From Anaerolinea sp. (GTDB taxonomy: Bacteria; Chloroflexota; Anaerolineae; Promineifilales; Promineifilaceae): DNA of 52,599 nucleotides. Both the position numbers and the translations under genes were made by a program. Below, piece after piece: positions 18,236 through 35,673 of the stretch (its first letter is position 1; every line of letters starts with the position of its first letter). Under the pieces are notes generated by a model. The model worked only from the letters and a program-made list of their open reading frames with translations, did not search any database and was not told the DNA's origin. The stretch covers positions 1-52,599 of the forward strand of contig JACSRF010000305.1 of assembly GCA_014879875.1 (NCBI GenBank), given 5' to 3'.

Positions 18236-19348
18236 CTATCCAAATAAATATTGGTAATATGGCCGTAACGCCGTCCGATTCACCACAGCCATCAACAACA
18301 AGGGCACAGCCAACCCGGTGATAACCAGCAACGGCATAAAAACCATCTGGTACGGCAGCAAGTTGGGCGCTGCGTGATATACGCCCCGCGCCACAATCTC
18401 TTGCACGGGGGCATGGATAAGATACACGCCAAAGGATTTTGTGCCCAGGTCACTCCACTGTTTTGCATAAGGGATGGGCGCTTTCTCGAAAGCCATATAG
18501 GCGAGGATGAAGCAACCCGCGTAGAGGCTGTCAAGCAAGGTGACGCCGGGCGCGAGCCATTCCACGCCGGACGCGCGAAAAAGCAGTTCCCATTCGACAA
18601 AAGCAAGCAGCCAGAAAACGGCCGTCCCCCCCAGCAGCACCCATTTCCAGCGCGCCAGCCAACCCTTAAACAAGGGCAGGTGGAAACCCGCCACCATGCC
18701 GAAAGCAAACCAAAAAATCGTCTGCGGTACAAACCAACCCGGCGACAGGCGCGCCACCCATTGCGCCGGGGCAAAGTCCCAGCCCAGCATGAGCGGATAC
18801 TGCGCCAGATGCACCAAAAGCTGCACAATCCCGGTCAGCAGCAGCAGCAATTTCCAGCGTTTTCTGGCTAACGGCACAAACAACAGTGGCGAGAGCAGGA
18901 AAAATTGGGTGAGGAGGGGCACGTAATAGTAGGGAGCGGCTGCGCGCCCAAACAACAGGCTGCGCACGTAGGCGTACCAGGGCAGCAGCCCATCTTGCAA
19001 TGCCCACAAGCCAAAAATTGCCGCTGACCAGATGACGTAAGGAATGAGCAAACTTTTAATGCGGTTGCCGATAACCGACCACCCCACGTTCTCTCGCTGC
19101 CGGCCGGTGGCAAAGGCCACAAAAAAGCCGGAGACAAACAAAAAAGCAGGGATGCTGAACATGATGAGCTGCTCGATGGCGCGCAGGGCATAATAGGCAG
19201 CATCGCCTATCCGCGCATAATGGGGGACGGCAACGGCCGTGTACCGGTCTGTCCACCAATACATGGCCGTAAACCCCCAGCCCGTCGCGTGGTTCAACAC
19301 CGCACCCAATACAGCAAACCCGTTCAAAAGCAATAAGCGTCTAATCAT
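18236..19348 (-). CDS. Acyltransferase family 3 membrane protein (second of two)
   Basis: A 370-residue protein with about ten hydrophobic helices, of the acyltransferase-3 (OafA/WecH-like) family that acylates extracytoplasmic sugars. RRLLLLNGFAVLGAVLNHATGWG is helix 1 with the conserved His (as in LRGxAxLxVxxxH). SIPAFLFVSGFFVAFATGR is helix 2 and its loop, and RIKSLLIPYVIWSA the RxxRLxPxY-like motif. GVYLIHAPVQEIVARG is the C-terminal helix. It is a clear paralog of the next gene upstream, 60 bp away. Both directly follow a carrier-protein/adenylation/dehydrogenase module, which suggests that the acyl group made there is one substrate; most characterised members use acyl-CoA, so carrier-protein use is inferred. 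Confidence 0.85.
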   Translation of the reverse strand: MIRRLLLLNGFAVLGAVLNHATGWGFTAMYWWTDRYTAVAVPHYARIGDAAYYALRAIEQLIMFSIPAFLFVSGFFVAFATGRQRENVGWSVIGNRIKSLLIPYVIWSAAIFGLWALQDGLLPWYAYVRSLLFGRAAAPYYYVPLLTQFFLLSPLLFVPLARKRWKLLLLLTGIVQLLVHLAQYPLMLGWDFAPAQWVARLSPGWFVPQTIFWFAFGMVAGFHLPLFKGWLARWKWVLLGGTAVFWLLAFVEWELLFRASGVEWLAPGVTLLDSLYAGCFILAYMAFEKAPIPYAKQWSDLGTKSFGVYLIHAPVQEIVARGVYHAAPNLLPYQMVFMPLLVITGLAVPLLLMAVVNRTALRPYYQYLFG

Positions 19349-19408
19349 GAGTCAGGGAACGTGAAACGTGATGCGTGGCATAAGACGGTGACGCATGACG
19401 CACAAAGA

Positions 19409-20518
19409 TTAACCAAACACATAGTTGTAATAGCGCCGAATCGGCGGCAGCATATCCATCAACCGCATCAGCAGCAAAGGGACAGCCAGGCCAACCAGCG
19501 CCACCAGCAGGGCAAAAAGAACTTGATAAGCCAACAGCCCCGGCGCGACGTGATACGTACCCCGCGCCACCACTTCCATGACGGGAATATGCGCCAGGTA
19601 GATGCCAAAGGCTTTGCTGCCCAAATCGCCTACGGTTTTTGCACTGGGCAATTTGGCCTGATCGAAACCGAAAAAGGTGAAGATCAGGGCAATGGCATAC
19701 ACGCTGTCTAAAACCGTTTCGCGGTGATCCACCCACGGCCGCCCAGACTGCCGCACCAGCCACTCCCACTCCAGGATACCAAGTGGCAGCAGCAGCACAG
19801 CCAATCCCAACAACGCCCACTTCCAGCGCGCCAGCGTCTCCTTAAAGCTGCTCAAGTGAAACCCCACAATCATGCCCAACACAAACCAGAGAATGCGCAC
19901 CGGGAAGAACCATTTCGGAAAAGCGGCAATGCTGCCTACAATGGTCGGTATCTCCATGCCCATAATCACGGCCATCTGCGCCAGTTGTACCGTAAGCTGT
20001 ACAAGCACCGCCGCCAACAACAGCGGCCGCCAATGGTTTTTCGCCAGTGGCGCGAGGAAGGGAGCAATGACGTAGAACTGGATGATGAGGGGAATGTAAT
20101 AGTAGGCAGGCGTCATGTTTCCCGTCAGGAAGCTGACAACATACCCCAACGGGGTAAAGATGACGCCTTGAGCGGCCAACATACCCAGCGCAATGATCCC
20201 CCAAAACAGGTAAGGTGGCACAAATTTTTTGACACGCGCCCACACGGTAGGCCAGCTAATGCTCCCGCTGCGTCCGGCCGTAAAGGCGGCAAAGTAACCG
20301 GAGACAAATAGGAAGGCGGGAATCGTGGCAACGACAAGTTGTTCCACGCTCCGCAGGACATAGTAGGCGGGAGTGTTGAGCTGGCTGAAGGGTACGGCCG
20401 TTGCTCCCTGGTAACGTTCTACCCACGAAAACATCGCCACAAAGCCCCACCCGGCCCCATGAAACAACATCACGCCTAAAACAGCCAGTCCATTAAGATA
20501 CAGCAGTCGTCTTACCAT
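19409..20518 (-). CDS. Acyltransferase family 3 membrane protein (first of two)
   Basis: A 369-residue multi-pass protein. RRLLYLNGLAVLGVMLFHGAGWG carries the conserved helix-1 His, TIPAFLFVSGYFAAFTAGR the second conserved block and VKKFVPPYLFWG the arginine/proline motif in lysine form. FGIYLAHIPVMEVVARG is the penultimate helix. It aligns along its whole length with the following gene (same loops and insertions), so the pair is a tandem duplication that may act on different sugar positions, or as two parts of one machine. The spacer before it (20519-20661) contains TTAGTTAGTTGGTTGG and AACCAACT words able to fold back. No clear Shine-Dalgarno site. Confidence 0.85.
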   Translation of the reverse strand: MVRRLLYLNGLAVLGVMLFHGAGWGFVAMFSWVERYQGATAVPFSQLNTPAYYVLRSVEQLVVATIPAFLFVSGYFAAFTAGRSGSISWPTVWARVKKFVPPYLFWGIIALGMLAAQGVIFTPLGYVVSFLTGNMTPAYYYIPLIIQFYVIAPFLAPLAKNHWRPLLLAAVLVQLTVQLAQMAVIMGMEIPTIVGSIAAFPKWFFPVRILWFVLGMIVGFHLSSFKETLARWKWALLGLAVLLLPLGILEWEWLVRQSGRPWVDHRETVLDSVYAIALIFTFFGFDQAKLPSAKTVGDLGSKAFGIYLAHIPVMEVVARGTYHVAPGLLAYQVLFALLVALVGLAVPLLLMRLMDMLPPIRRYYNYVFG

Positions 20519-20661
20519 GTGGTTAGTTATCGGAATCGTTAGTTAGTTGGTTGGTTGGTCAGGCGTAATGACAGAAGCTAACCAATCAACACAACCAACT
20601 TTCTTATAGCTTGCCAGGGGCAGGCCAATCGTAAATCGCAAATCGTTAATCGTAAATCCTA

Positions 20662-20898
20662 TCAGTATTGCGCCAGATAATCTGACAGCACCTTCACACT
20701 TTGGAAATTCTCAAAGACCACATCCTCATCTGGCACCTGAATGTGGAACCGTTCCTCAATGAACGCCACCATCTGCAAAATGCCCAACGAGTCAATGATA
20801 CCGTTGCTCAGCAAATCATCCTCAACCTTCAGATCGCCTTTGCGCCCACGCAGCAGTTCCTGTTTAATGTACTCTAGCAAGATATTTTCCCGATCCAT
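20662..20898 (-). CDS. Free-standing acyl/peptidyl carrier protein
   Basis: A 78-residue acidic four-helix carrier protein. The phosphopantetheine serine is S37 in GIIDSLGILQMV, the DSL motif. The rest, VAFIEERFHIQVPDEDVVFENFQSV, matches helices 2 and 3. Length and motif fit a discrete ACP/PCP of the kind loaded by separate adenylation enzymes (DltC, or the PCPs of pyrrole cassettes). GGAGG lies about 10 nt before the ATG. It follows the adenylation gene by 201 bp, the gap being filled by REP-like hairpins, and precedes two acyltransferases. I infer that it carries a prolyl, then pyrrolyl-2-carboxyl, group; a general acyl chain is the alternative. A phosphopantetheinyl transferase is not in the window. 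Confidence 0.93.
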   Translation of the reverse strand: MDRENILLEYIKQELLRGRKGDLKVEDDLLSNGIIDSLGILQMVAFIEERFHIQVPDEDVVFENFQSVKVLSDYLAQY

Positions 20899-20982
20899 GA
20901 TTTTTTGACCTCCAAATTGATTGTTAGATCAGTTCTATCTCCAAGATTGAACTGATCTGGAATCTAACGGAACTTCAGGGCG

Positions 20983-21072
20983 TCATGCCCCCACCTACGC
21001 GGGGGTAGGCTCTGCGAAGGCAGGCATCCACTCCTGCAAAAACATGGATTCCCGCCTTCGCGGGAATGACGA
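20983..21072. repeat. REP/BIME-like palindromic repeat cluster
   Basis: On the minus strand this reads GTCATTCCCGCGAAGGCGGG followed by related units ending in CCCCCGCGTAGGTGGGGG. ATTCCCGC (21048-21055) and GCGGGAAT (21060-21067) form one stem; CCCCC and CGGGGG form another further left. This sequence type is a very common dispersed bacterial intergenic palindrome. The first stem is followed by a T5 on the minus strand (CCATGTTTTTGC), so it could reduce read-through from the adenylation gene into the carrier gene. Confidence 0.7.
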
Positions 21073-21099
21073 GTCCCGCACTTAATTGAATTTTCGTTC

Positions 21100-22692
21100 C
21101 TAAGCGGCCGCCTTGGCCTCAGCTTCTTCCGCAGCCTGTGCTTGCAATTCACGACGGTTAATTTTACCCGTAGACGTGCGCGGGAACATCTCCAACACGC
21201 GCACTTTAACGGGCACGGCATAGATGGGCAGTCGCGCCGCCACGTGGTTGATCAGTAGTTCTTCCGTCAATGGCGCGCCATCTTTGGCCGTCACGGCCGC
21301 TTCAATCAAATTACTCCCCTGTCCATCCGGTATGGGGAATACGGCCGCTTCCTCCACATCCTCATGAGACAACAGCGCCACCTCAATTTCGTCCAACTCC
21401 ACCCGGTAGCCCCGCGTCTTAATCTGGCGATCTTTGCGCCCCAAATATTTCAGGTTCCCATCCGGCAGCTGCTCAACCAGGTCACCGGTACGGTAAAACA
21501 GATGCTCATAATGGCCGCCAAACACCTTGCGCCGGAAAAAGCCGCGCTCGTTCAGGTCAGGACGCCCCCAATAACCCAACATCACCACGCCACCGCGCAT
21601 CAGTAGTTCCCCTACCTGACCCGGCGCAACCGGAGCGCCATCCGCGCCCACAATCAGCGCCTCCAGGTTGGCGCATGGGATGCCGATGGGGATCGTCTCA
21701 TCGGACTCTTCCGGCAGCGATTCGACGTGATAATAGGTGCAAACGTTCGTCTCGGTAGGGCCATACAGGTTGCTAAACTGCGCGTGAGGCAGCAGCGCCA
21801 GCAAATTGCGCAAATGCTTGGTCGGGAACACCTCCCCGGCAAACAACACCCAACGCAGGGCGCTCAGGTCGCGCTTTTCCAGGGACCCCCGTTCCATCAG
21901 TTGGATCAGGGCAAAGGGCACAGAGTACCACACACTGATCCGCTCATCCTGCATCAGTTTAGCCAGGCTCGCCGGAAATTTGGTGATGGCTTCGGGAATG
22001 ATGACGGTGGTGGCCGCGGCAACGGCCGTTGCAAAAAAGTCCAACGTCGAAAGGTCAAAATGCAGCGGGGCGTGGTTGCTCACCCGGTCATCTGGCGTCA
22101 ACCCATACGTCTCCGCCGCCCAAATGGCAAAACTCAGCCCACTGCGATGCGTGTGCATAATGCCTTTCGGCGTGCCGGTAGAACCAGACGTATACAAAAT
22201 ATAAGCCAGGTCTTGCTCCGTCAACGCCACCTCCGGCGCCGTGTCGGCCGCCGCTGCATACACTTCGTCCCAGGAAATGCAAACCAACCCTTCCCGCTCC
22301 GTCGCCCCAATCAGGCAGCGCAGCTCTCCCGTATCCTCAGCCAACAAGCCCGTCTGATCCAATTTCAGATCCGTTGTGATGATGTGGCGAATCCCGCAAT
22401 CACGCATCACATAGGCAATGCGCGACACCGGCGCGAACGGGTCTAGCGGCACATAAGCGCAGCCCGCCTTCATAATGCCATGCAGAGCAACGGCCGTATC
22501 CAGGCTCTTATTCATGAAAATGCCAACCCGGTCGCCGCGGCGCGCGCCCTGCTCGTGCAGAATGCGCGCCAACCCGTTGGCGCGGCGCGCCATCTCGCCA
22601 TAAGTCAACCCTTGCCCGGCAAAGCGCACCGCTTCTCGCTCTGGGGAGTTCTCTGCCGCATTATCAACCGCTTGTGGCAACAAAAACAACAT
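21100..22692 (-). CDS. Free-standing amino-acid adenylation enzyme, probable prolyl-AMP ligase
   Basis: A 530-residue ANL-superfamily enzyme that would load an amino acid onto the carrier protein. Core motifs: A3 YTSGSTGTPKG (167-177), A5 NLYGPTETN (308-316), A7 YRTGD (400-404), A8 GRKDRQIKTRGYRVE (418-432) and A10 TSTGKINRREL (506-516). Aligning it by hand to the GrsA A-domain gives specificity residues D213, L214, L217, Y256, L283, A285, L309, V317, C318 and K510, i.e. DLLYLALVCK. As I recall, this is the code of the proline-activating enzymes of pyrrole pathways (CloN4/PltF/RedM type). D-alanine ligase DltA is the main alternative by architecture. GGAGG is 8 nt before the ATG. The dehydrogenase gene is 90 bp upstream and the carrier gene is downstream. 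Confidence 0.88.
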   Translation of the reverse strand: MLFLLPQAVDNAAENSPEREAVRFAGQGLTYGEMARRANGLARILHEQGARRGDRVGIFMNKSLDTAVALHGIMKAGCAYVPLDPFAPVSRIAYVMRDCGIRHIITTDLKLDQTGLLAEDTGELRCLIGATEREGLVCISWDEVYAAAADTAPEVALTEQDLAYILYTSGSTGTPKGIMHTHRSGLSFAIWAAETYGLTPDDRVSNHAPLHFDLSTLDFFATAVAAATTVIIPEAITKFPASLAKLMQDERISVWYSVPFALIQLMERGSLEKRDLSALRWVLFAGEVFPTKHLRNLLALLPHAQFSNLYGPTETNVCTYYHVESLPEESDETIPIGIPCANLEALIVGADGAPVAPGQVGELLMRGGVVMLGYWGRPDLNERGFFRRKVFGGHYEHLFYRTGDLVEQLPDGNLKYLGRKDRQIKTRGYRVELDEIEVALLSHEDVEEAAVFPIPDGQGSNLIEAAVTAKDGAPLTEELLINHVAARLPIYAVPVKVRVLEMFPRTSTGKINRRELQAQAAEEAEAKAAA

Positions 22693-22782
22693 TCTAACGA
22701 CCTCCGGTAACGATTAGCAATTGGCAGTTAGCCATTCCCAATAAACCTTTGTGAGTGTAATCCTGCTTTCTTTCTGGCTGGC

Positions 22783-23928
22783 TTACAAGCCTAAATAACG
22801 GGCAATAATATTACGCTGAATGTCCGACGTACCAGAGTAAAGAACGCCACCGAGCGCGTCGCGCAGATCTCTTTCCACCTCAAACTCGGTCATATATCCC
22901 CACCCGCCAAAGGTGCGAATGGCATCCAGCCCAGACTGCACAAACGCTTCGCCCAGGTATAATTTCGCCATCGCCGCTTCCATAACGGCCGATTTACCCT
23001 CACTTTTCAGCCACGCCACCTTATACAGCAGCAGCCGCGCCGTCTCCAGCCGCACCTTCATATCCACAATGCGGTTCGCCACCGTCTGGAACTTGCCAAT
23101 CGGCTGCCCAAACTGCTCGCGTTCGCGCGCATAGGCGATGCTTTTTTCAAGCTGCAGCTCCATGGCGCCAATGTGGCTGCCCAAAATACAGGCGCGCTCC
23201 CACTCCATCGAATCCTTAAAGATATTCGCCCCAGCGCCCACCGGCCCCAGGCGATTTTCTTCCGGCAAAAAACAATCCTCAAAAATCAACTCCCCCATCG
23301 GCGAGGTGCGCAGCCCCATCTTGTCAATGTGACGGCTAACGGTAAACCCCGGCGTGCCCATATCCACCACAAAACCCGTGACGCCCCACATACCCCGTTT
23401 CGGGTCTACCGTCGCAAAAACAACGGCCATATCCGCCACAGGCGCATTGGTGACAAAGGTCTTGCTGCCATTGAGCACATAGCCCCCCTCAACCTTCTCA
23501 GCGCGGGTACGCATACTATAAGCGTCCGAACCAGAATCCGGTTCGCTCATGCCATGCGCGCCAATCATCTCACCGCGAATCATGGGAGGCAGGTACTTTT
23601 GCTTCTGCGCTTCTGTGCCAAACTTCAAGATGGGCATTTGCACGCTCCACATCTGGGCATTGATGGCAAAAATCAGGCCATTGTCGGCGCTGCCATACCC
23701 TAACCCTTCCATAGTTAGCATGGTGGTAAGGATATCAGTGTCCGCGCCGCCATACGCTTCAGGAAAAGGCAGCCCTTGAATGCCAAATTGGGCGCACTTG
23801 TTCCAGTTCTCGCGGGAAAATTCCGCCTTCTGATCCCGTTCCATTAACCCATCGCGCAGCTCTTTTTTGGCAAAGTCAATCACGGCGCGCTTGTATTCCA
23901 GTTGTTCATCAGACCATGAAAAATCCAT
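22783..23928 (-). CDS. Acyl-CoA-dehydrogenase-like flavoprotein, probable prolyl-carrier dehydrogenase
   Basis: A 381-residue member of the acyl-CoA dehydrogenase family. It has the FAD-binding blocks MIGAHGMSEPDSGSDAYSM (about 121-139) and NGSKTFVTNAP, and RTFGGWGYMTEFEVERDLRD in the C-terminal helical domain. The MCAD catalytic glutamate position is serine here (LYSGTSDIQ, S365). Instead a glutamate sits in helix G (MEWERACIL, E244), where isovaleryl-CoA dehydrogenase and, as I recall, PltE-type prolyl-PCP dehydrogenases place the base. Length and segments such as NGLIFAINAQMWSVQMPI also recall PltE/PigA. I therefore infer a two-step oxidation of carrier-bound proline to pyrrole-2-carboxyl. 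GAGGAG lies 8 nt before the ATG, and this is the first gene of the module after a 204-bp gap. Confidence 0.87.
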   Translation of the reverse strand: MDFSWSDEQLEYKRAVIDFAKKELRDGLMERDQKAEFSRENWNKCAQFGIQGLPFPEAYGGADTDILTTMLTMEGLGYGSADNGLIFAINAQMWSVQMPILKFGTEAQKQKYLPPMIRGEMIGAHGMSEPDSGSDAYSMRTRAEKVEGGYVLNGSKTFVTNAPVADMAVVFATVDPKRGMWGVTGFVVDMGTPGFTVSRHIDKMGLRTSPMGELIFEDCFLPEENRLGPVGAGANIFKDSMEWERACILGSHIGAMELQLEKSIAYAREREQFGQPIGKFQTVANRIVDMKVRLETARLLLYKVAWLKSEGKSAVMEAAMAKLYLGEAFVQSGLDAIRTFGGWGYMTEFEVERDLRDALGGVLYSGTSDIQRNIIARYLGL

Positions 23929-24132: not shown

Positions 24133-24957
24133 TCATTCTATAAAAAACGACTCCCAGGGGGAACCGGCAAATTGCGCTTTCAGTTCGGCGTAGTTAGCGA
24201 TAGCCTGCGAAAGGGGTTTGTGCGCTTGTTTGAAAATGCTGGGTTTGACGGGTTGATAAGGCAGATGCAGAAACTGCTGAATGCGCTGCATCTCGGCTTC
24301 GTTATCGCGCGCCAACGCTTCGTAAACCAGCTCAATTTTAGGATGATGGGCAAAGCGTTGGTCGAATTCTGTTTCGTAGGCGCGTGTACGTTCAAAATCA
24401 GCCAGGCACTCCTGATAGTCAAGCGTGACAGTGGGGACCCGCTCTTTTTCACCGGTAGTGTTGACCCAACTATCGGTTAGCTCCGCCCGTTTGCGCGAAA
24501 GGTGCGTTTCCAGGATATTGTGCCGCTTCATATGGATGATGTGCAGGTCGGTTTGCGCTTGCAGATAGGGCCAGATGGGCTGCCAGTTGGGCTGCTGCGC
24601 GTGATAATAGAAGATTTTGAAGCCAACAGCGGCCGTTTCCTTGGGGTAACGACGGAAAATGCGCTCGCCGACGAATTTGATCGGGTCCTGTAACAACAAG
24701 TGTTGCATTTTGCCATTTTGCAGGTAGCCAATGTGGTCCCAATCCATCGAGTCCTGACTGCGGAAAACTTCGCCATACGCTTCTACCTGGTTGTGATCGT
24801 TGAGCAGGCTGCGCAGTAAATTAGAGCCGGTGCGCGAACGGCCAAGTACAACGAATTTAGTATAGGCGGCGTTACCCGCCAGTAAGCGGAGATCAAGGGC
24901 GAGATTACGCATGGTGGTTCGTCCTGTAAGTAGTCGTTGGCGCATACTTGCCACCAT
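24133..24957 (-). CDS. Sulfotransferase family protein
   Basis: A 274-residue PAPS-dependent sulfotransferase-like enzyme. The 5'-phosphosulfate loop is FVVLGRSRTGSNLLRSLL (about 35-52) and the 3'-phosphate-binding segment is IIHMKRHNILETHLSRKRA (about 138-156). The C-terminal FAGSPWESFF recurs as FAGTPYFDMF in the second sulfotransferase of this window, suggesting common ancestry. It would transfer sulfate to a sugar hydroxyl of the glycan or a precursor. The start is ambiguous: the track ATG (24957) is 5 bp after the preceding stop, while ATG 24912 (MRNLALDLR) has AGGACG upstream. It is translationally close to UDP-GlcNAc 2-epimerase. No PAPS-synthesis genes are in the window. Confidence 0.8.
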   Translation of the reverse strand: MVASMRQRLLTGRTTMRNLALDLRLLAGNAAYTKFVVLGRSRTGSNLLRSLLNDHNQVEAYGEVFRSQDSMDWDHIGYLQNGKMQHLLLQDPIKFVGERIFRRYPKETAAVGFKIFYYHAQQPNWQPIWPYLQAQTDLHIIHMKRHNILETHLSRKRAELTDSWVNTTGEKERVPTVTLDYQECLADFERTRAYETEFDQRFAHHPKIELVYEALARDNEAEMQRIQQFLHLPYQPVKPSIFKQAHKPLSQAIANYAELKAQFAGSPWESFFIE

Positions 24958-24962
24958 TCACT

Positions 24963-26141
24963 TTAAGTCAGCGGAGGTGACTGAAATTCGTCACACGCGC
25001 CTTCTAGCAGTAGTTGCGTGATGCGTGCGCTCGCCTGGCCATCCCCATATGGGTTAACAGCGCGTGACATTTGTTGATAAACGGCCGTATCATCCAATAA
25101 CAGCATCGTTTCCTGCACAATCCGCTGCGGGTCTGTGCCTACTACCCTGGCCGCACCGGCGGCGACCGCTTCCGGCCGTTCCGTTGTCTCGCGCAGCACC
25201 AACACCGGCGCCCCCAGGCTAGGCGCTTCCTCTTGAATACCGCCAGAATCGGTCAGCACCAGTTTACTGCGCTTCATCAGATGAACCAACGTCAGGTAAT
25301 CCACCGGTGGCGTCAGTGTCACATTCACCAACCCTTGCAATAATTCATGCACCGGGTTCCAGATGTTAGGGTTACGGTGTACGGGGTAGACAAACTGCAA
25401 CTCGGGTCTGGTTTGCGCCAGGTGGCGTATGGCCTGGCAAATGTGACGAATGGGCTGGCCGTGATTTTCGCGGCGGTGGGCGGTCACGGTGATAAGGGTA
25501 CGGTCGGTTGAAGGATTGTTTTGAAAGAAGAGGGACAACCCTTGTGCCTCTGCCCATTCATAGAGAGAGGGTGGTATTGGGCGCGCGGCCGTTTCCAGCA
25601 GCGCATCAATCACACTATTGCCGGTGACAAAAATTTTCGCGTCGGCAATCCCTTCCCGCCGCAAATTATCCCGTGAAGCGGCCGTGGGCGCAAAGCAAAG
25701 ATCACTCACATGATCCGCCACCACCCGATTCATCTCTTCCGGGAAAGGATTCTGGCGATCATAAGTACGCAGGCCTGCCTCTACATGCCCCACCCGCACC
25801 TGCTGATAATGAGCGGCAATGGCGGCAGCCATCACGGTAGTCGTATCCCCCTGCACCAGCATCCAATCTGGTTTTAGCTCCGCCAGCAGCGGCTCCAGGG
25901 TAGACATGACTCGCGCCGCAACCTGTGTTGGCGTCTGGTTATGCGCCATCAGGTTCAGGTCATAGTCAGGCTGAATGTCGAAAAGCGTAAGAACCTGGTC
26001 TAGCATCTCCCGATGTTGGGCAGTAACACAGACATATGATTGCACACGCTCTGGCTGCTGCGCCAGCTTTTTCACAATAGGGGCCATTTTAATCGCTTCT
26101 GGCCGCGTGCCGAAGACGGATAGAATTTTTAACCGGTTCAT
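24963..26141 (-). CDS. wecB: UDP-N-acetylglucosamine 2-epimerase, non-hydrolysing
   Basis: A 392-residue GT-B-fold epimerase interconverting UDP-GlcNAc and UDP-ManNAc in the cytoplasm. Diagnostic segments are SVFGTRPEAIKMAPIVKKL at the N-terminus, VEAGLRTYDRQNPFPEEMNR, VTAHRRENHGQP and LTDSGGIQEEAPSLGAPVLVLR. Length is normal for WecB/MnaA. GGAG lies about 9 nt before the ATG. No UDP-ManNAc dehydrogenase (WecC) is seen in the window, so the glycan probably contains ManNAc itself, or WecC lies elsewhere. It is one of only two nucleotide-sugar enzymes in the whole cluster. Confidence 0.95.
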   Translation of the reverse strand: MNRLKILSVFGTRPEAIKMAPIVKKLAQQPERVQSYVCVTAQHREMLDQVLTLFDIQPDYDLNLMAHNQTPTQVAARVMSTLEPLLAELKPDWMLVQGDTTTVMAAAIAAHYQQVRVGHVEAGLRTYDRQNPFPEEMNRVVADHVSDLCFAPTAASRDNLRREGIADAKIFVTGNSVIDALLETAARPIPPSLYEWAEAQGLSLFFQNNPSTDRTLITVTAHRRENHGQPIRHICQAIRHLAQTRPELQFVYPVHRNPNIWNPVHELLQGLVNVTLTPPVDYLTLVHLMKRSKLVLTDSGGIQEEAPSLGAPVLVLRETTERPEAVAAGAARVVGTDPQRIVQETMLLLDDTAVYQQMSRAVNPYGDGQASARITQLLLEGACDEFQSPPLT

Positions 26142-26215: not shown

Positions 26216-27325
26216 TTATTGTAAGGTTTGCCGGTAAGCGCCCAGAGTAGCGACAGCGGCCTGCTCCCAGGTATACTGCTGTAACACCCGCTGCCGCAGC
26301 AGTGGAGAGGGCGGCGCTTCCAGGGCGGCGGCTACTGCGCGACGAATAGACGCGGGATCACCGGGGTGACAGTACCAGGCCAGATCGCCAAAATAATCGG
26401 CGGTGGAGCCTATGGCGGTGGTAACAATTTTACACCCGGCAGCGGCGGCCTCCAGACTAACCAACCCAGGCGTTTCGCGCCAACTGGGCAAAACGTGTAC
26501 GGCCGCTAACGCATAAATAGCGGGTAACTCTTCATACGCCACACGGTCTAGAAAGAGAACATTGCCGCGTTCTGCGCCACGCACCTGGCAGGCAGTGTAA
26601 TAATCCATGCGTTCGGTAAGCGGTTTGCCAATGAAGACCAGGGGAATCGGCAGGTCATCGAGCGCCTCGATGAGACCCAATTGGTTTTTCGTTGGGTTAA
26701 CGCTGCCCACTTGCAGCACAAAGTCGCGCACACCATACTTTTCATAAAAGGCGGCGCTGGGGGTGGGGAGTTCCCGGTACAGCGTAGGCTCAATGCCATT
26801 CGGCACAACCGTGACGCGCTGCATGAAGGTTTTACCCAGCATAAAAGCCTCTTGCAGCAGATCGGCCTCCGCCTGCGAGTTCGGCAAAACACGATCGGCC
26901 TGCTGCAACAGGCGGCGCTGGTAACGCCACCGACGAAACAACGGTTCTTTCAACCGCTGCCATTGGATGTATAACGTTTGCATGCGCACTTTACCCAGCC
27001 TGCGCGCCAGGGCGCTCCAACGAGGATGGGTGTTTACGGCCGTATCCGCCCAATGCTCCAGCATATCCCAGTAAATAGAAGAGAGCAGGATCGGCTTACC
27101 TAACGGTCGCAGCGCCGCAAACACCCGCGCCGTAGACTCCGGCGTCTGCATGTTAAACAGGTGCGCCAGATCAAACGGGGGCAGCTTGTCTAACTCAGCA
27201 AGGGAACGCACAAACCCTTCAACCCCCAACGCCTCTAAGGCGCTTTGAGTTTTCTGCATTTGCACATTATCACCACCAGGGTGCTGCTCAGCATCTTCGC
27301 GGGTGTTGACAAAAAGAACACGCAT
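26216..27325 (-). CDS. GT4 family glycosyltransferase
   Basis: A GT-B enzyme of about 369 residues. MRVLFVNTREDAEQHPGGDN is the N-terminal loop with the GGD-type glycine motif. The donor half includes DFVLQVGSVNPTKNQLGLIEAL, VLFLDRVAYEELPAIYALAAV and RETPGLVSLEAAAAGCKIVTT, the E(x7)E donor-binding segment. The track's start (27442) would overlap the preceding gene by 100 bp; the ATG at 27325 leaves a 17-bp gap and begins at the conserved first strand, so I prefer it. The sugar is unknown. It is followed by wecB after 74 bp. Confidence 0.87.
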   Translation of the reverse strand: MRVLFVNTREDAEQHPGGDNVQMQKTQSALEALGVEGFVRSLAELDKLPPFDLAHLFNMQTPESTARVFAALRPLGKPILLSSIYWDMLEHWADTAVNTHPRWSALARRLGKVRMQTLYIQWQRLKEPLFRRWRYQRRLLQQADRVLPNSQAEADLLQEAFMLGKTFMQRVTVVPNGIEPTLYRELPTPSAAFYEKYGVRDFVLQVGSVNPTKNQLGLIEALDDLPIPLVFIGKPLTERMDYYTACQVRGAERGNVLFLDRVAYEELPAIYALAAVHVLPSWRETPGLVSLEAAAAGCKIVTTAIGSTADYFGDLAWYCHPGDPASIRRAVAAALEAPPSPLLRQRVLQQYTWEQAAVATLGAYRQTLQ

Positions 27326-27342
27326 AATGAGTTGCCGCAGGG

Positions 27343-28584
27343 TCAACGACCAGTCACGCCTATCGTCGTGCTGCCAGGTGCGGATGTCTCGGCCACGCTT
27401 TGCGCCAGAAGCAGGCTGTCGGCAAAAAACTTGGCCGCCCAATTGAGATAGCGATATGGCTCATACCCGCCATAAATGGGCGCAGAACCGGCTATGCCGC
27501 CGCGCACACCGATGTTCGCTGAATGGCGGTTCTGGTGGCGTTTGAGGGAGTGGTTGGCGTGATGAGCGGCCATGACATAAGCAGCGTCACCGGTTAATGT
27601 ATACAGCTTCAACCAGACAATGGACGCCTGGGCATTGCCGGTCAGGCAGCTCCAGGCCAGGTCAGAGCGCCAACCACGTCCGTAACGAGCGCGTAGGGAA
27701 CCGTCTCTGGTCTGTGTCTGCATAAGAGCATCGGCTGCGCGGCGCGCCGCATCCAGATAAACTGCTTCATCGAGCAGCAGGGCCGACTCTAGCAAGCCGC
27801 GAATGGTGTAGACAATGGTATGCGTCAGGGGGTCTTCGCCCAGAGTGAAGCCGGCGTTGGCAAACCAGCCATCGCCGTCTTGTTGGCTGAGCGTCCATTG
27901 CAGGTTGCGCACGGCCGTTTGCCGGTAACAGCCATCTGGCGCATGAACAGCCAGCCAAAGCAGCGACCAGGCGACGCGCACATTGTACGTATGCAGATGA
28001 CCGACTGGCCGGGGCGTATGGCGACGCCAGCAGCCATCCTCATCCTGGATGGCGCACAACCAGTCACCTGCGCGCCGCGCGGCGGTCAGGTAACGGCCGT
28101 CGCCACTCTCCTCAAAGAGGCGCAATAGCCCTTGCATAATTTGACCGGTATCAAAAACGATAGGGTCACGGGGCCAATCAGGCCAGAGGGGGCCAATGGG
28201 AAACGCGCCGCTGTCAAGCTGTAGAGTAAGCAGCCATTCGCCCATGCGTCGCGCGCGCTGCCGGTAACTGTCATCGTTAACGGCCGCCGCATAATCAAAA
28301 AAGGTGGGGATAATGTAGCCGGTCGTTTCAGGGTAAGCGGGCGACCAACTACCCATCCGTAAATCATAAAAAGCAGCCACGCCATCGTTACCGGTGGCGT
28401 CTTGGGCGGCGCACAGCCAGTCCATCGTCGCTTGCAGGTGGTCACGATCAGCCGCTGCCGGATAAGGCCAGCGTAGCATGTCATGCAAAACGGCCGTTAA
28501 CACAGTACGGTCGCCACGCGAACGCCAGGCCCACAAGCCATCGCGTATTCGCTCATCAATCACCTTGCGCAGAATTTGCTTCAT
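27343..28584 (-). CDS. Alpha/alpha-toroid (six-hairpin-like) protein
   Basis: A 413-residue soluble protein with repeated helical hairpins such as YLTAARRAGDWLCAIQDEDG, YLDAARRAADALMQTQTRDG and MGEWLLTLQLDSGAF, the pattern of (alpha/alpha)6 or prenyltransferase-like toroids. Such folds occur in glucuronyl C5-epimerases, polysaccharide lyases, unsaturated glycosidases and terpene cyclases. There is no DxDD or QW set that would make it a cyclase. There is no signal peptide, so it acts in the cytoplasm unless exported by another route. The position among glycosyltransferases suggests action on a sugar or lipid-linked intermediate. I cannot name the reaction. Confidence 0.6.
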   Translation of the reverse strand: MKQILRKVIDERIRDGLWAWRSRGDRTVLTAVLHDMLRWPYPAAADRDHLQATMDWLCAAQDATGNDGVAAFYDLRMGSWSPAYPETTGYIIPTFFDYAAAVNDDSYRQRARRMGEWLLTLQLDSGAFPIGPLWPDWPRDPIVFDTGQIMQGLLRLFEESGDGRYLTAARRAGDWLCAIQDEDGCWRRHTPRPVGHLHTYNVRVAWSLLWLAVHAPDGCYRQTAVRNLQWTLSQQDGDGWFANAGFTLGEDPLTHTIVYTIRGLLESALLLDEAVYLDAARRAADALMQTQTRDGSLRARYGRGWRSDLAWSCLTGNAQASIVWLKLYTLTGDAAYVMAAHHANHSLKRHQNRHSANIGVRGGIAGSAPIYGGYEPYRYLNWAAKFFADSLLLAQSVAETSAPGSTTIGVTGR

Positions 28585-28727: not shown

Positions 28728-30287
28728 TCAGGCAAACGTCATCTCCGGCGTGGTCTCCGTTTGTAGCTGTTCACAGAACCAGGCCTGGGTTGGCTCAATG
28801 TATTCTGGTTTGTGCCATTCGCTTTCCAGGTCATCGTTGATATGATGTTCGGCGATCAACCGACCATGCGCGTAACGGCGAATAACAGGATGCAGGTAGG
28901 CGGCTTCATTGGCGGCTTCGGGGTCTGGGTCGCGTTCCACGCTGAAGGGGTCGCCAGCAAAATGGCCGTATTCCAGGCTGAGGGTGTAGTAGTGAGGATG
29001 GTCAATGAAGTAGCCACGCCGCACATGGTCCTGGCGCACGTCGGGGTAGTACACGGCCGTTTCCGCATCTTCCACCGCCAACACATCACACAAAAAGCCA
29101 GGCTGCAAGAAGATAGCAGGGGCGTTGTTCGCGCGGTCAATCAACTTGTTTGTAATGGCCTCAGCCGTCGCCGGTAATTCTTCACTCGACCACTCGCCAC
29201 CATGGTACTTGATCTCAAAAATATTGGCTAACGCCTGCACATTATGGCGGAAACCATGAATAAAGCCCGACATGGTGCGCTTAAAGTCGCACGCCTGCAT
29301 CAGCGTTCCGGCAAAGAACATATCCGGCACATTTAACGATTCCCATTCCGTTGTCTGCGCCGGCAATTTGTCCATGTACATCAGTTCCGGTTTGCAGCTT
29401 TCGTCAAAGATGGAAGCGTCCATGCGGAAGCCGGTGCAGAAGATTACCTTGTCATATTCCACTGTAACCGTTTGCCCTTTGGCGTGGGCATAGGTGAGGT
29501 TGACCTGATACGTGTCGTTTTCTTTGGTGACCCAGTTAATGTCCGCATCAATGACCGTGTTTTGCGATTTTAGCTGGTAGGTATCGAGGAAGTTATTGTT
29601 GACAGCGCGCAAGTTGCCCACGTAGTGGGTAGCCCACGCGAATTTCACCGATTCCGGGCTGCACATGTGAATGGCAGCGGCCGTTTCAGTCAGGTTATCG
29701 GCCGTTTCAAAGGCGGAGTTACCTTTGCCCACAATCATCACGCGCTTATTGATGTAATCTTCGGGGTTGATAGAGTGGTTGATATAGGTGTCACACAGCT
29801 CAATGCCGGGGATATCAGGCAGGTATGGTTTAGCCAGACCCGTTGCTATGACCAATCGTTTACCCGTGTAGGTATGGCCCTGGCTGTCGGTAACAACAAA
29901 CAGCCCGTCTTGCTTGCCCACCTGCGCCACTTTGGTGCTGTAGCGCACGTTGAGTTGGTAGTGGGCGGCGAAATCATTGAGATAACGCACCAGATCATCG
30001 GGATGCGGGAAATATTTTTTGCTGTAATGCTTGAACGTCAGACGGTCATCATCGGCAAGCAGGGAGTTCCAATCCCAACGCAGATTGGTGACGGGATCAT
30101 CTTTGCCGGTATACACCTTATTGATCGAAATGAGCATACGATGGCGGGGCATTTTGGCGAAAAAAGCGCCTGCCTGGTTGGCTCGTTCGAGAATAAGATA
30201 GTCACGGCCGTTTTTTGCTAAAAAGTAACCCAATTGTAAACCTGCCGGGCCGGCGCCAATGATCAAATAATCGGTGTGCATCTCCAT
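28728..30287 (-). CDS. FAD/NAD(P)-dependent oxidoreductase resembling FOXRED2/ERFAD
   Basis: A 519-residue two-dinucleotide-domain flavoprotein. GAGPAG (11-16) binds FAD, VIATGLAKP (146-154) is the ATG motif of flavin monooxygenase-like enzymes and IVGKGNSAFETADN (about 185-198) is the NAD(P)H-binding Rossmann. The phrases PRHRMLISINKVYTG, NLRWDWNSLL and WATHYVGNLRAVNNNFLDTY closely recall, from memory, animal FOXRED2 (ERFAD), an ER oxidoreductase. There is no signal peptide, no WxWxIP flavin-halogenase motif and no clear FMO fingerprint. AAGGAG lies 11 nt before the ATG, supporting this start. It could hydroxylate or oxidise a small molecule or a sugar in this pathway; the reaction is unknown. 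Confidence 0.75.
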   Translation of the reverse strand: MEMHTDYLIIGAGPAGLQLGYFLAKNGRDYLILERANQAGAFFAKMPRHRMLISINKVYTGKDDPVTNLRWDWNSLLADDDRLTFKHYSKKYFPHPDDLVRYLNDFAAHYQLNVRYSTKVAQVGKQDGLFVVTDSQGHTYTGKRLVIATGLAKPYLPDIPGIELCDTYINHSINPEDYINKRVMIVGKGNSAFETADNLTETAAAIHMCSPESVKFAWATHYVGNLRAVNNNFLDTYQLKSQNTVIDADINWVTKENDTYQVNLTYAHAKGQTVTVEYDKVIFCTGFRMDASIFDESCKPELMYMDKLPAQTTEWESLNVPDMFFAGTLMQACDFKRTMSGFIHGFRHNVQALANIFEIKYHGGEWSSEELPATAEAITNKLIDRANNAPAIFLQPGFLCDVLAVEDAETAVYYPDVRQDHVRRGYFIDHPHYYTLSLEYGHFAGDPFSVERDPDPEAANEAAYLHPVIRRYAHGRLIAEHHINDDLESEWHKPEYIEPTQAWFCEQLQTETTPEMTFA

Positions 30288-30447: not shown

Positions 30448-31548
30448 TCACGCAAACAGGTCAGCAAAAGGGGAATCTGGCTGCCCGCCTGTTTGTTTCG
30501 CAGTGCGCCAGCGCAGCAGGTGGCGGCAAAGGGCAGGGTTAAGGCGGTAAAGCAGAATGACCAGCTGCGCCACACGATCAGTAGGGGCCAGAGCGCGCGC
30601 CTGGTGCAGCCATTGGGCAATATGGGGGGCATCAGCATACTCGATGAGAGATTTGCTGGCCATCAGTCGCAATAAACGCCCCTGTTCGTATGGCGGCAGT
30701 GCTTGAAATTGCGGCCACTGCAAAATAGCTTGCTGTTTTTCGATCTGTCCAGCGGTCAGGTTAATGAGCAGGTCGTAAAAAACGGCCGTCTGCACCTCCA
30801 CCGCCAGCTCGATAAAGCGGGGTATCTGGATGACATTTTCACGGCACTGTGCCAGGTAGCTCAAGCGGCGCTGCCGCGCTACCTGCACGGTAATGTTGGT
30901 CTGATGCACGCGGTAGAGGCAGGTCTGTTCCGGTAGATAGCCAAAGTTGGCCGCAGCGGCAAAGCGGGTGAAAAACTCCCAATCTGGGCCAATGACAATG
31001 CGCGTGTCATAACGCAAGCGGCGCTCGGCTAGCGGCGCGTGGCGCAGCAGCACGCAAATGGGCGGCCCAAACACATCCGAAGCGCGCGCCAATTCGGGGA
31101 AAATGTCGCCCTCGAACGGACCTCGCCGCCGCGCGGCCAATGATTTCAGGCGACGGCCGTCGGCCGTATAATGCCAGCCATCGGTATACACCCCATCCTT
31201 TTCCGGGTATGTCTGCAAATGAGCCACCGTTATCTGTAAGTGGTGTGGCAGCCAGGCATCATCGGCGTCCAAATAGGCTATAAATTCTCCCTGGCTGTTT
31301 TCCAGCGCCACATTGCGCGCCGACGCTTCGCCGCCATTTTCCTTGTTAATCAGGCGCACGCGGGCGTCGTCGGTGTAACGCGCAGTAATCTCGGCCGTCG
31401 CATCGCGCGAACCGTCATTCACCACCAACAATTCCCATTGCGGGTATGTTTGCGCCAGCACGCTCTCAATCGCTTCGGCAATGAACCGCTCCGCATTATA
31501 GGCGGGCATCATCACACTCACTAATCCTGGGGTCATCTGTTTATCCAT
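30448..31548 (-). CDS. GT2 family glycosyltransferase
   Basis: A GT-A enzyme of about 366 residues. PGLVSVMMPAYNAERFIAEA begins the fold, LLVVNDGSRDATAEI binds nucleotide and FIAYLDADDAWLPHHL carries the DxD motif; IGPDWEFFTRFAAAANF is the catalytic ED-like segment. The C-terminal 120 residues are helical and resemble the tails of the GT2 genes at 36612 and 40074, so the three are paralogs. The track starts at a TTG (31551) immediately before an ATG (31548), which I use; ATG 31536 is also possible. Downstream, 160 bp without a gene precede the flavoprotein. Confidence 0.87.
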   Translation of the reverse strand: MDKQMTPGLVSVMMPAYNAERFIAEAIESVLAQTYPQWELLVVNDGSRDATAEITARYTDDARVRLINKENGGEASARNVALENSQGEFIAYLDADDAWLPHHLQITVAHLQTYPEKDGVYTDGWHYTADGRRLKSLAARRRGPFEGDIFPELARASDVFGPPICVLLRHAPLAERRLRYDTRIVIGPDWEFFTRFAAAANFGYLPEQTCLYRVHQTNITVQVARQRRLSYLAQCRENVIQIPRFIELAVEVQTAVFYDLLINLTAGQIEKQQAILQWPQFQALPPYEQGRLLRLMASKSLIEYADAPHIAQWLHQARALAPTDRVAQLVILLYRLNPALCRHLLRWRTAKQTGGQPDSPFADLFA

Positions 31549-31555
31549 CAATGTC

Positions 31556-33801: not shown

Positions 33802-35673
33802 TTAACGATTGACGATTGGCGATGCGTCTATGAACTGCCGATGCCACAACTCAATCGCCATGAGCGCGCCCAGGCGCACGGTCTGGTTGTTGCCGGCCAT
33901 GTGATCGGCCACCACGCGGCGGATGGCGTCTGGATTGTAGCAGCCGCGCTGCAAATGGCGCGGACTGAGCAGGATGTCTTCGACCCAACTGCGCAGCACA
34001 GTGCGGAACCAGCCGTTGTAATCTTTATACGGCTTGCGCAAACTGTCTGGGTGAGGGCCGAGGCCGCGATTGTACAACTGCCAGCGCGCCAGGCGGCTGG
34101 CGCGAATTTGCACCTCGCGCAGGCAGGCGACCAGGGGCAAACCGGTGTCTGTGAGGGGGATTTGCGCCAGTGCGGGGAAGGCGTTGACGAATGATTTACG
34201 GGCAACGCGCCGCTCGTATTGCAGGCCGGGGGGGATTTGGGTGGATAACTGCACCAAGTCATTGTCGGCGAAGGGCAGGCGCACCAGGGCGCGATGGCGG
34301 GCGACTTCGACGCCGTTGAGGGTCATGCGCGGTACGCGCTGCGTCAGATCGAAGTAGAGACGCTGCAGGGCGAGGCTGCGGTTGCCACTGGCGGCCATGC
34401 CGTCGGCCAAACTATCGAGTACGGCCGTGCCCACCTTTGCCTTAAACTCCGCGCTAAACAGATCGTCATGCTCCGTGAATGGGTCAAAGGTAATGACCCC
34501 TTGCCCATGATACACCGCCAGGTGCGCTTTGAGGCGCGTCGGCTCATCATAGTCTGCCCAGAAGGGGGGCTGGAGAGCAAAACCCATCATGGCGTCGCCC
34601 AGGAACCCTTTATAGATGATTTGCGCGTGCTGCGCCTCCTCTTCCAGGGTAGCCAGGGCGTGCAGGTTGACAATGTTGCCCTGCCCGTCGGTGATACGCA
34701 CAGCGTTGTCGGCCATGTCCAAGAGGAAGTCGGGGCGCAGTTCAAAGAAATGGTGCTGGGAACCGATGTGGCGGGCCATTTCGCGGGCGTAACGGCCGTC
34801 GTCGCAACCAGGAATGCCCCAGGTAAAGGTGTGCAAAGGGTGGGGCACAATCTGCGCCAGTTCTGCCAAAATCATGCGCGAGTCTAGTCCGCCGCTTAGC
34901 AGCACGCCTAAAGGCGCGCCCCCCGCCTGTCGCCGCACGGCCTGGCGGAAAAGCTGGGTGAACGTCTCAATGTAGTGCGTTTCCGGCAACAGGTCAATTT
35001 GTTCCGGGTAACGCAGCGTCCAATAACGGTGAATGCGCTTTTCGCCCCCTTCGACAATGAGCAGCGACGCCTGGGGCAGCAGGCGGGCCGCTTGCAGCAG
35101 GGTGCGGTCATCTAGCAAATGGTCAAAGGTGAGAAACTGCGCCATGGCCACGCGGTCCACGTCGCGGGGCACGTCTGGGTCGGCGAGGATGGCGCGCACG
35201 CCGGAGGCAAAAAGCAGGCGCGCCCCCTGTTGGGCGTAATAGACGGGGTACTGCCCCATGCGGTCGTTAGCGACGATGAGCTTTTGCCGGAGCCTGTCCC
35301 AAATGGCGATGAGGAAACTGCCGTTGAGCTTTTCGGCAAAAGCCTCGCCATACGCCTCGTAACGACGCAGGATGAGTTCCGTATCGTGGGGAACGCGCAG
35401 GGTGTGGCCTTTTTGTTCAAGCTGTTGGCGGAGAACGGCCGTATCATACAATTCGCCTTCAAGCAAAACACAAATGGTCTGCGCCTCATTCCAGTGGGGC
35501 TGGGGCGCGCCATTGGCGATACCCAACGTCACCCGCGCCAGTCCTACCCCATCTTCCTGGTGCGCTTCCACGCGAAAACGGGATTCTGACTCTAAAGCGC
35601 GGGCCATTTTTTGTAGAAACGGCCGTTCTTCACCCGACGCCACTGAGCCAACAAAGCCAACTAATCCAGGCAT
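33802..35673 (-). CDS. Asparagine-synthetase-like protein lacking the glutaminase cysteine
   Basis: A 623-residue AsnB-family protein. The N-terminal Ntn-hydrolase-like half is present (GSFLIAIWDRLRQKLIVANDRMG), but the second residue, normally the catalytic Cys of MCGIxG, is Pro (MPGLVGFVG). AGGAGGG lies 4-5 nt before this ATG, so the start is secure. The synthetase half has the PP-loop LGVLLSGGLDSRMILAELAQ (ATP pyrophosphatase motif). It should therefore adenylate a carboxylate but not take ammonia from glutamine; it may use free ammonia or another amine, as beta-lactam-synthetase-like relatives do. AsnB-like genes are recurrent in polysaccharide clusters, where they can amidate uronic acids or amino-acid substituents. 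That role is inferred. Confidence 0.85.
   Translation of the reverse strand: MPGLVGFVGSVASGEERPFLQKMARALESESRFRVEAHQEDGVGLARVTLGIANGAPQPHWNEAQTICVLLEGELYDTAVLRQQLEQKGHTLRVPHDTELILRRYEAYGEAFAEKLNGSFLIAIWDRLRQKLIVANDRMGQYPVYYAQQGARLLFASGVRAILADPDVPRDVDRVAMAQFLTFDHLLDDRTLLQAARLLPQASLLIVEGGEKRIHRYWTLRYPEQIDLLPETHYIETFTQLFRQAVRRQAGGAPLGVLLSGGLDSRMILAELAQIVPHPLHTFTWGIPGCDDGRYAREMARHIGSQHHFFELRPDFLLDMADNAVRITDGQGNIVNLHALATLEEEAQHAQIIYKGFLGDAMMGFALQPPFWADYDEPTRLKAHLAVYHGQGVITFDPFTEHDDLFSAEFKAKVGTAVLDSLADGMAASGNRSLALQRLYFDLTQRVPRMTLNGVEVARHRALVRLPFADNDLVQLSTQIPPGLQYERRVARKSFVNAFPALAQIPLTDTGLPLVACLREVQIRASRLARWQLYNRGLGPHPDSLRKPYKDYNGWFRTVLRSWVEDILLSPRHLQRGCYNPDAIRRVVADHMAGNNQTVRLGALMAIELWHRQFIDASPIVNR

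Follow-up and report, generated by a model that had tools for sequence, protein, structure and literature searches.

Organization of the locus

The window analysed here is the whole 52,599-nucleotide stretch of Anaerolinea sp. (positions 1 to 52,599 of contig JACSRF010000305.1), and the genes examined in it, from 154 to 47828, were all found on the minus strand. Positions 28728-30287 (-) are occupied by a single clean, ATG-started open reading frame (ORF) of 519 aa, and no open frame was found on the plus strand of that interval. The gene is not an accident of assembly, since a second species of the genus carries it at 90% identity in a syntenic cluster. The ORF and its neighbours are as follows:

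18236..19348, minus strand: second membrane acyltransferase (Acyl_transf_3; Pfam)
19409..20518, minus strand: membrane acyltransferase (Acyl_transf_3; Pfam), a candidate for acyl transfer onto a sugar
20662..20898, minus strand: peptidyl carrier protein, 78 aa, with a DSL serine motif (sequence; PDB carrier-protein matches including 2my5, 6cxt_A and PltL)
21100..22692, minus strand: stand-alone adenylation domain, predicted to be L-proline specific (Pfam; best pocket matches 6o6e and 7thn)
22783..23928, minus strand: prolyl-carrier-protein dehydrogenase of the acyl-CoA-dehydrogenase fold, AnaB/Bmp3/PltE type (PDB 4irn, 449 bits; 6cxt, 340; 5zw0, 338)
24133..24957, minus strand: sulfotransferase (Pfam)
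24963..26141, minus strand: UDP-GlcNAc 2-epimerase WecB (NCBIfam TIGR00236, 477 bits)
26216..27442, minus strand: GT4 glycosyltransferase (Pfam)
27343..28584, minus strand: alpha/alpha-toroid protein with weak C5-epimerase/pectate-lyase-like matches (Pfam), adjoining the FOXRED2-like gene here and, by synteny, in the related loci L034 and L035
28728..30287, minus strand: FOXRED2/ERFAD-like NAD(P)H-FAD flavoprotein, 519 aa (Pfam Pyr_redox_3, 1.1e-50; 43-member alignment; model pLDDT 90.8)
30448..31551, minus strand: GT2 glycosyltransferase, immediately upstream of the FOXRED2-like gene (Pfam)

Downstream of the FOXRED2-like gene, the order runs from the alpha/alpha-toroid protein through GT4, WecB, the sulfotransferase, the dehydrogenase, the adenylation domain and the carrier to the two acyltransferases. 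An initial annotation had set the flavoprotein among glycosyltransferases, and the Pfam assignments of GT4 (26216..27442) and GT2 (30448..31551) bear this out. The adenylation domain, with its PltF/PigI-like pocket, the carrier and the dehydrogenase together constitute a thiotemplated proline cassette. When read by alignment at the classical positions, the pocket residues of the adenylation domain are DLLYLALVC, identical in the L-proline ligase 6o6e. The dehydrogenase is nearest to AnaB (449 bits), above 6cxt and PltE (340 and 338 bits, respectively), and its MEWER stretch, aligned with all three, keeps the Glu; 6cxt, which was solved with a carrier protein, is presumably Bmp3. The product of AnaB is a pyrroline, not a pyrrole, and the dehydrogenase of the window may form either, a pyrrole being the presumed product here. 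No conventional halogenase was found among the window's scanned genes.

The stretch 18236-23928 (-), in which the proline cassette and the two membrane acyltransferases lie inside a glycosyltransferase cluster, is conserved in five Chloroflexota genomes and suggests a candidate pyrrole-decorated glycan, with the pyrrole derived from proline. We know of no description of such a glycan for Chloroflexota. Elsewhere in the cluster, an asparagine-synthase-like amidotransferase (33802-35673, minus strand) is kept in relatives, and its matches to XrtA-type amidotransferases fall below the cut-off.

Family assignment of the flavoprotein

The 519-aa protein carries an FAD motif, GAGPAG (GxGxxG), at residue 11 and an NAD(P) motif, GKGNSA, at residue 187, together with the signature blocks PRHR..ISINK (47-57), R.DWNS.L (70-77), WATHYVG.LRA.N (218-231) and DTYQLK (235-240), a C-terminal domain with HP..R (466-470), and the terminal residues PEMTFA. 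In the predicted model (pLDDT 90.8), the FAD fold opens with a beta strand at residue 3, and an additional region extends from about residue 365, beyond the FAD and NAD(P) domains. Because the FAD-binding strand begins so early, with GxGxxG already at residue 11, the protein has no signal peptide, just as had been claimed for it, and inspection of the N and C termini found neither an ER signal peptide nor a KEEL-type retrieval signal. Such signals are not expected in a bacterium, and OroF, a sponge relative, also lacks the retrieval signal (PMC12833800); their absence therefore bears on localisation, not on homology.

The three phrases quoted in the initial annotation, PRHRMLISINKVYTG, WDWNSLL and WATHYVGNLRAVNNNFLDTY, are all present in the minus-strand ORF, and the 43-member alignment of bacterial homologs revealed them to be the most conserved blocks of the family, beyond chance. 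The alignment has 58 invariant columns, including R48, H49, S54, N56, K57, D72, W73, N74 and S75 as well as W218, G224, R227, D235, Y237 and K240 (43/43 each). Two segments of human FOXRED2 align to the query with 41/61 and 21/33 identities and scores of 214 and 125, far above the shuffled maxima of 48 and 36, which makes a strong lead rather than a test. Judging from these motifs and the literature, the affinity to animal FOXRED2/ERFAD is likely, and the proposal that first raised it is likely right; the bacterial homologs form a clade of their own.

Pfam and NCBIfam returned generic FAD/NAD matches only. Sequence and profile matches in the PDB were remote, with YpdA/Bdr at the top of the profile (76 bits, over parts of the chain) and flavin monooxygenases also among the best; YpdA was closest in the fold search as well (TM 0.80 by target length), where it and related flavoenzymes cover the FAD/NAD domains only. 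Closest kinship to ordinary flavin monooxygenases (FMOs) or Baeyer-Villiger enzymes (BVMOs), against which the proposal had been set, was not found: besides the YpdA/Bdr match, the strict BVMO fingerprint FxGxxxHxxxW[P/D] occurs in 0/43 homologs and a relaxed FMO fingerprint in only 7/43, and a tree of bacterial sequences separates the homologs from a sister family of other Chloroflexota. Fingerprint and profile both speak against an ordinary FMO or BVMO, and this reading was rejected. The two-component halogenase motif WxWxI (PF04820) is absent from all 43 homologs, and the query has no Trp_halogenase match; PF04820 matches in the genome lie on other contigs only and carry little weight, given that five control genomes (e.g., E. 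coli) also match. AetF was absent from the listed PDB profile matches and from the best 50 fold matches, and an AetF-like fold is for that reason not claimed.

The sister family, found in other Chloroflexota families (loci L005-L029; 29–34% identity), keeps K57 and DWNS and lacks R48-H49, K240 and, in the aligned part, the C-terminal HP..R. K57 is therefore common to both families and R48 and H49 are specific to the FOXRED2-like one, while K240 is replaced by Gly or Ala in 25/25 sister sequences. Invariance in the one family and Gly or Ala in the other is what a catalytic Lys would show. K240 is located after strand two of the NAD(P) domain, which in AetF and Bmp5 has an insertion holding Lys258 and Lys277, respectively, and it is conceivable that K240 is equivalent to AetF Lys258.

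Distribution of homologs and linkage to the proline cassette

A scan of species-level genomes by two short peptide patterns recovered at least 35 true homologs, with identities of 44–64% outside the genus, from at least five phyla: Chloroflexota, Cyanobacteriota, Pseudomonadota, Bacteroidota and, with many members, Actinomycetota. Viral contigs held no relatives of the protein, and a viral origin was rejected. ORFs in high-GC loci were called with a codon-position filter, and some of their borders are approximate. No paper on bacterial ERFAD-like proteins was found in the open-access literature, a scope outside which most subscription journals fall.

Clustering with adenylation genes, raised as a check on the initial annotation, is evident among these homologs. 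An adenylating enzyme was found within the fetched stretch (up to 10 kb) in 28 of the 35 matches listed, compared with 1/14 control flavoprotein loci in the same scan (Fisher p 3e-6, an optimistic value, as the loci are related and the controls come from different taxa). Outside Chloroflexota, 26 of the 33 matches listed are near adenylating enzymes and 19 are near an aromatic ammonia-lyase, and activated or aromatic small molecules therefore recur as a theme. Among the 35 loci listed, an aromatic amino acid lyase, an FMN-dependent dehydrogenase and a P450 were each found in 19, and two FOXRED2-like copies in 15. On the ancestral role conjectured in the initial annotation, the analysis covered bacterial sequences, and these members of the family sit mainly in small-molecule biosynthetic loci.

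Several neighbourhoods deserve description in their own right. A recurrent layout is shared by the actinobacterial loci L039, L041, L043-L047, L049-L051, L053, L055, L057, L060-L063, L066 and L068, comprising FOXRED2-like genes (usually two), an aromatic amino acid lyase, an AMP ligase, an FMN-dependent dehydrogenase and a P450, often with a histidine kinase. A second copy in the Chloroflexota genome G450 (L114, on G450:C93) has an FMN-dehydrogenase, a P450 and an FAD-monooxygenase as neighbours, as in the actinobacterial loci, with a phage-integrase gene nearby, and it branches at the base of the actinobacterial clade in the tree of bacterial sequences. Copies in Fulvivirga and Kordia adjoin NRPS genes, and one from Pseudomonadota lies near a LanM-like lanthipeptide synthetase. 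In Tamaricihabitans halophyticus, a vanadium-chloroperoxidase-like gene (L056:12826-14322) occurs two genes downstream of the FOXRED2-like gene. Ahead of each of the cyanobacterial genes lies one for a related protein of ~240 aa (L036:8970-9752, L065:9218-9937 and L067:9135-9848), which in L067 shows a weak haem-oxygenase-like match (PF14518).

Within Chloroflexota, the FOXRED2-like gene lies upstream of the dehydrogenase, on the same strand, in five genomes of two genera, and the intervening genes differ. In the sister species a single glycosyltransferase separates the two, and in G450 (L034), G451 (L035) and G453, whose copies are 62–64% identical to the query, one to three genes do so. The five cassette-linked copies form one clade in the tree of bacterial sequences; the copy of a further genome, G025, instead adjoins multi-module NRPS genes. 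Across 56 genomes of the order, the dehydrogenase was found in 16 at the threshold used and the FOXRED2-like gene in six, all six of which also hold the dehydrogenase (naive p = 2.5e-4, a value that ignores shared ancestry). The other ten, several of them drafts, have the dehydrogenase (62–84% identity) and no FOXRED2-like gene that was found, as expected for an optional tailoring step. Between the two species of the genus, the FOXRED2-like and cassette genes are 87–94% identical and the cluster's glycosyltransferases 39–87%.

Candidate chemistry and comparison with known systems

Sponge OroF belongs to the ERFAD family and shares 43% identity with human ERFAD; supplied with FAD, NADPH and KBr, it adds one or two bromines to pyrrole-2-carboxylic acid and to pyrrole carboxamides (PMC12833800, January 2026). 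The free acid is brominated with or without added flavin reductase, pyrrolyl-CoA is not acted upon, and no chlorinated product is formed with chloride; its authors describe a halogenase whose mechanism is unknown and which resembles none of the known flavin halogenases, and in their tree it arises from a duplication within the sponges (PMC12833800). Because a sponge member of the family brominates the pyrrole that the cassette here would make from proline, the bacterial protein probably halogenates (or oxygenates) small molecules and does not handle protein disulfides. The presence of an apparent bacterial member beside a proline-to-pyrrole cassette points independently to the chemistry of OroF, and halogenation is favoured. 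We put at a little under one half the probability that this is an oxidative tailoring flavoenzyme (FAD/NAD(P)H, single chain) of the FOXRED2/ERFAD family which halogenates a proline-derived pyrrole destined for a glycan. Of all that the initial annotation offered, its side remark on pyrrole tailoring is the best supported, given the proline cassette, its conserved linkage and the published OroF activity; the glycosyltransferase setting also stood, the family is likely right, and the association with disulfide handling found no support.

For such a pathway, the adenylation domain would activate L-proline and the carrier protein would be loaded, whereupon the dehydrogenase would oxidise the prolyl-carrier to a pyrrole-2-carboxyl group. 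The FOXRED2-like enzyme, its FAD reduced by NAD(P)H and then reacting with O2 and halide, could halogenate the electron-rich pyrrole in carrier-bound or free form or when already joined to a sugar, and the membrane acyltransferases would place the acyl group on the glycan. As OroF refuses the thioester, the bacterial enzyme might take its substrate once this has left the carrier. The case for halogenation is weakened by the dehydrogenase being nearest to AnaB, a pyrroline maker, by the inactivity of OroF on pyrrolyl-CoA and with chloride, and by the absence of AetF from the best 50 fold matches. In addition, the position of the OroF halogenase as a duplication within sponges means that other members of the family need not halogenate, and that sponges and bacteria may have arrived convergently at similar uses of one scaffold. 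To our knowledge, no bacterial family member has been found to halogenate.

Other activities can be envisaged for the same protein. A class-B-like flavin monooxygenase that would hydroxylate a carbon or the nitrogen of the pyrrole or pyrroline, or else a sugar amine, with no halogen involved, is possible if somewhat unlikely: flavin monooxygenases are among the profile's best PDB matches, the chalkophomycin pathway makes N-hydroxypyrroles with two flavoenzymes, and the actinobacterial cassettes, with their P450, FMN-dehydrogenase and aromatic lyase, need no halogenation, but the known N-oxygenase ChmG belongs to the acyl-CoA-dehydrogenase superfamily rather than to the FOXRED2-like family, the one reaction reported for any ERFAD-family member is the bromination of pyrroles, and the fingerprint counts given above speak against this class. 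It is improbable that the enzyme completes or assists prolyl oxidation by taking a pyrroline from the AnaB-like dehydrogenase on to a pyrrole. The resemblance to AnaB and the gene order in the five genomes would suit such a role, yet ten genomes of the order, drafts among them, have the dehydrogenase with no FOXRED2-like gene found, and most homologs elsewhere, among the matches listed, lack such a dehydrogenase in the fetched stretch. Less probable still is that the protein is an oxidoreductase tailoring sugars for the glycan cluster and lies near the proline cassette by coincidence; the glycosyltransferases, epimerase and sulfotransferases around the gene are what this would predict, whereas outside Chloroflexota the neighbours of its relatives are NRPS, aromatic lyases and adenylating enzymes, and it is conserved between species to the same degree as the cassette genes rather than as the glycosyltransferases.

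The disulfide-handling role suggested from the animal protein found no support in the alignment, and a reductase of disulfides or low-molecular-weight thiols is disfavoured because redox cysteines are absent. CxxC occurs in 0/43 homologs, no Cys is invariant (the best kept are present in 35/43 and 34/43), and the position of the cysteine in YpdA GGGPCG is Ala in 42 homologs and Gly in one. The fold match to YpdA/Bdr and the binding of ER redox partners by ERFAD in human cells bring such an activity to mind, but a C-terminal domain of ~150 residues extends past the YpdA match and the genomic context is biosynthetic, so that we regard it as the least probable of the activities considered.

The family is of wider interest, as ERFAD is a conserved animal protein without an assigned enzymatic reaction, and the bacterial members, with their clear biosynthetic neighbours and no signal peptide, provide concrete candidate substrates and could show the family's basic chemistry. 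It is tempting to go further, at rather long odds, and suggest that at its root FOXRED2/ERFAD comprised bacterial single-chain halogenases of electron-rich aromatics (pyrroles in Chloroflexota and other rings beside aromatic lyases or NRPS), which animals inherited; halogenation would then have been kept or regained in sponges, the chemistry of mammalian ERFAD would be derived, and the locus described here would yield a surface glycan decorated with halogenated pyrrole.

Among known systems, OroF shares with the bacterial protein probable membership of the ERFAD/FOXRED2 family, an architecture in which one chain carries FAD, NAD(P) and C-terminal domains, and, presumably, a pathway with a proline-derived pyrrole-2-carboxyl group. 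OroF, however, is an animal protein with an ER signal peptide whose pathway proceeds by CoA ligation to an alkaloid, whereas the bacterial enzyme lacks the signal peptide and is set in a glycan cluster with a carrier-protein-based proline route. Animal FOXRED2/ERFAD appears to have the blocks PRHR.LISINK..TG, DWNSLL and WATHYVG.LRA.NN..LDTYQLKS in common with the query, which differs in its biosynthetic setting and in having no signal peptide, retrieval signal, or PDI or ERAD partners. The bacillithiol disulfide reductase YpdA/Bdr, the best fold match, corresponds to the query over the FAD and NAD(P) domains, but identity is just 18–20%, and the query lacks the catalytic Cys and possesses the extra C-terminal domain. 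The single-component flavin halogenases AetF and Bmp5 likewise combine an NADPH-reducible, FMO-like fold in one chain with a Lys that is invariant and falls in the region of the NAD(P) domain; the Lys equivalence is putative, and the listed PDB and fold matches of the query do not include AetF. Finally, the proline-to-pyrrole cassettes PltF/PltE/PltL, PigI and Bmp1/Bmp3/Bmp4, and the related AnaB/C/D, resemble the window in the types of adenylation domain, carrier protein and dehydrogenase that one gene run brings together, but in the window the neighbours of the cassette are glycosyltransferases and membrane acyltransferases rather than PKS/NRPS.
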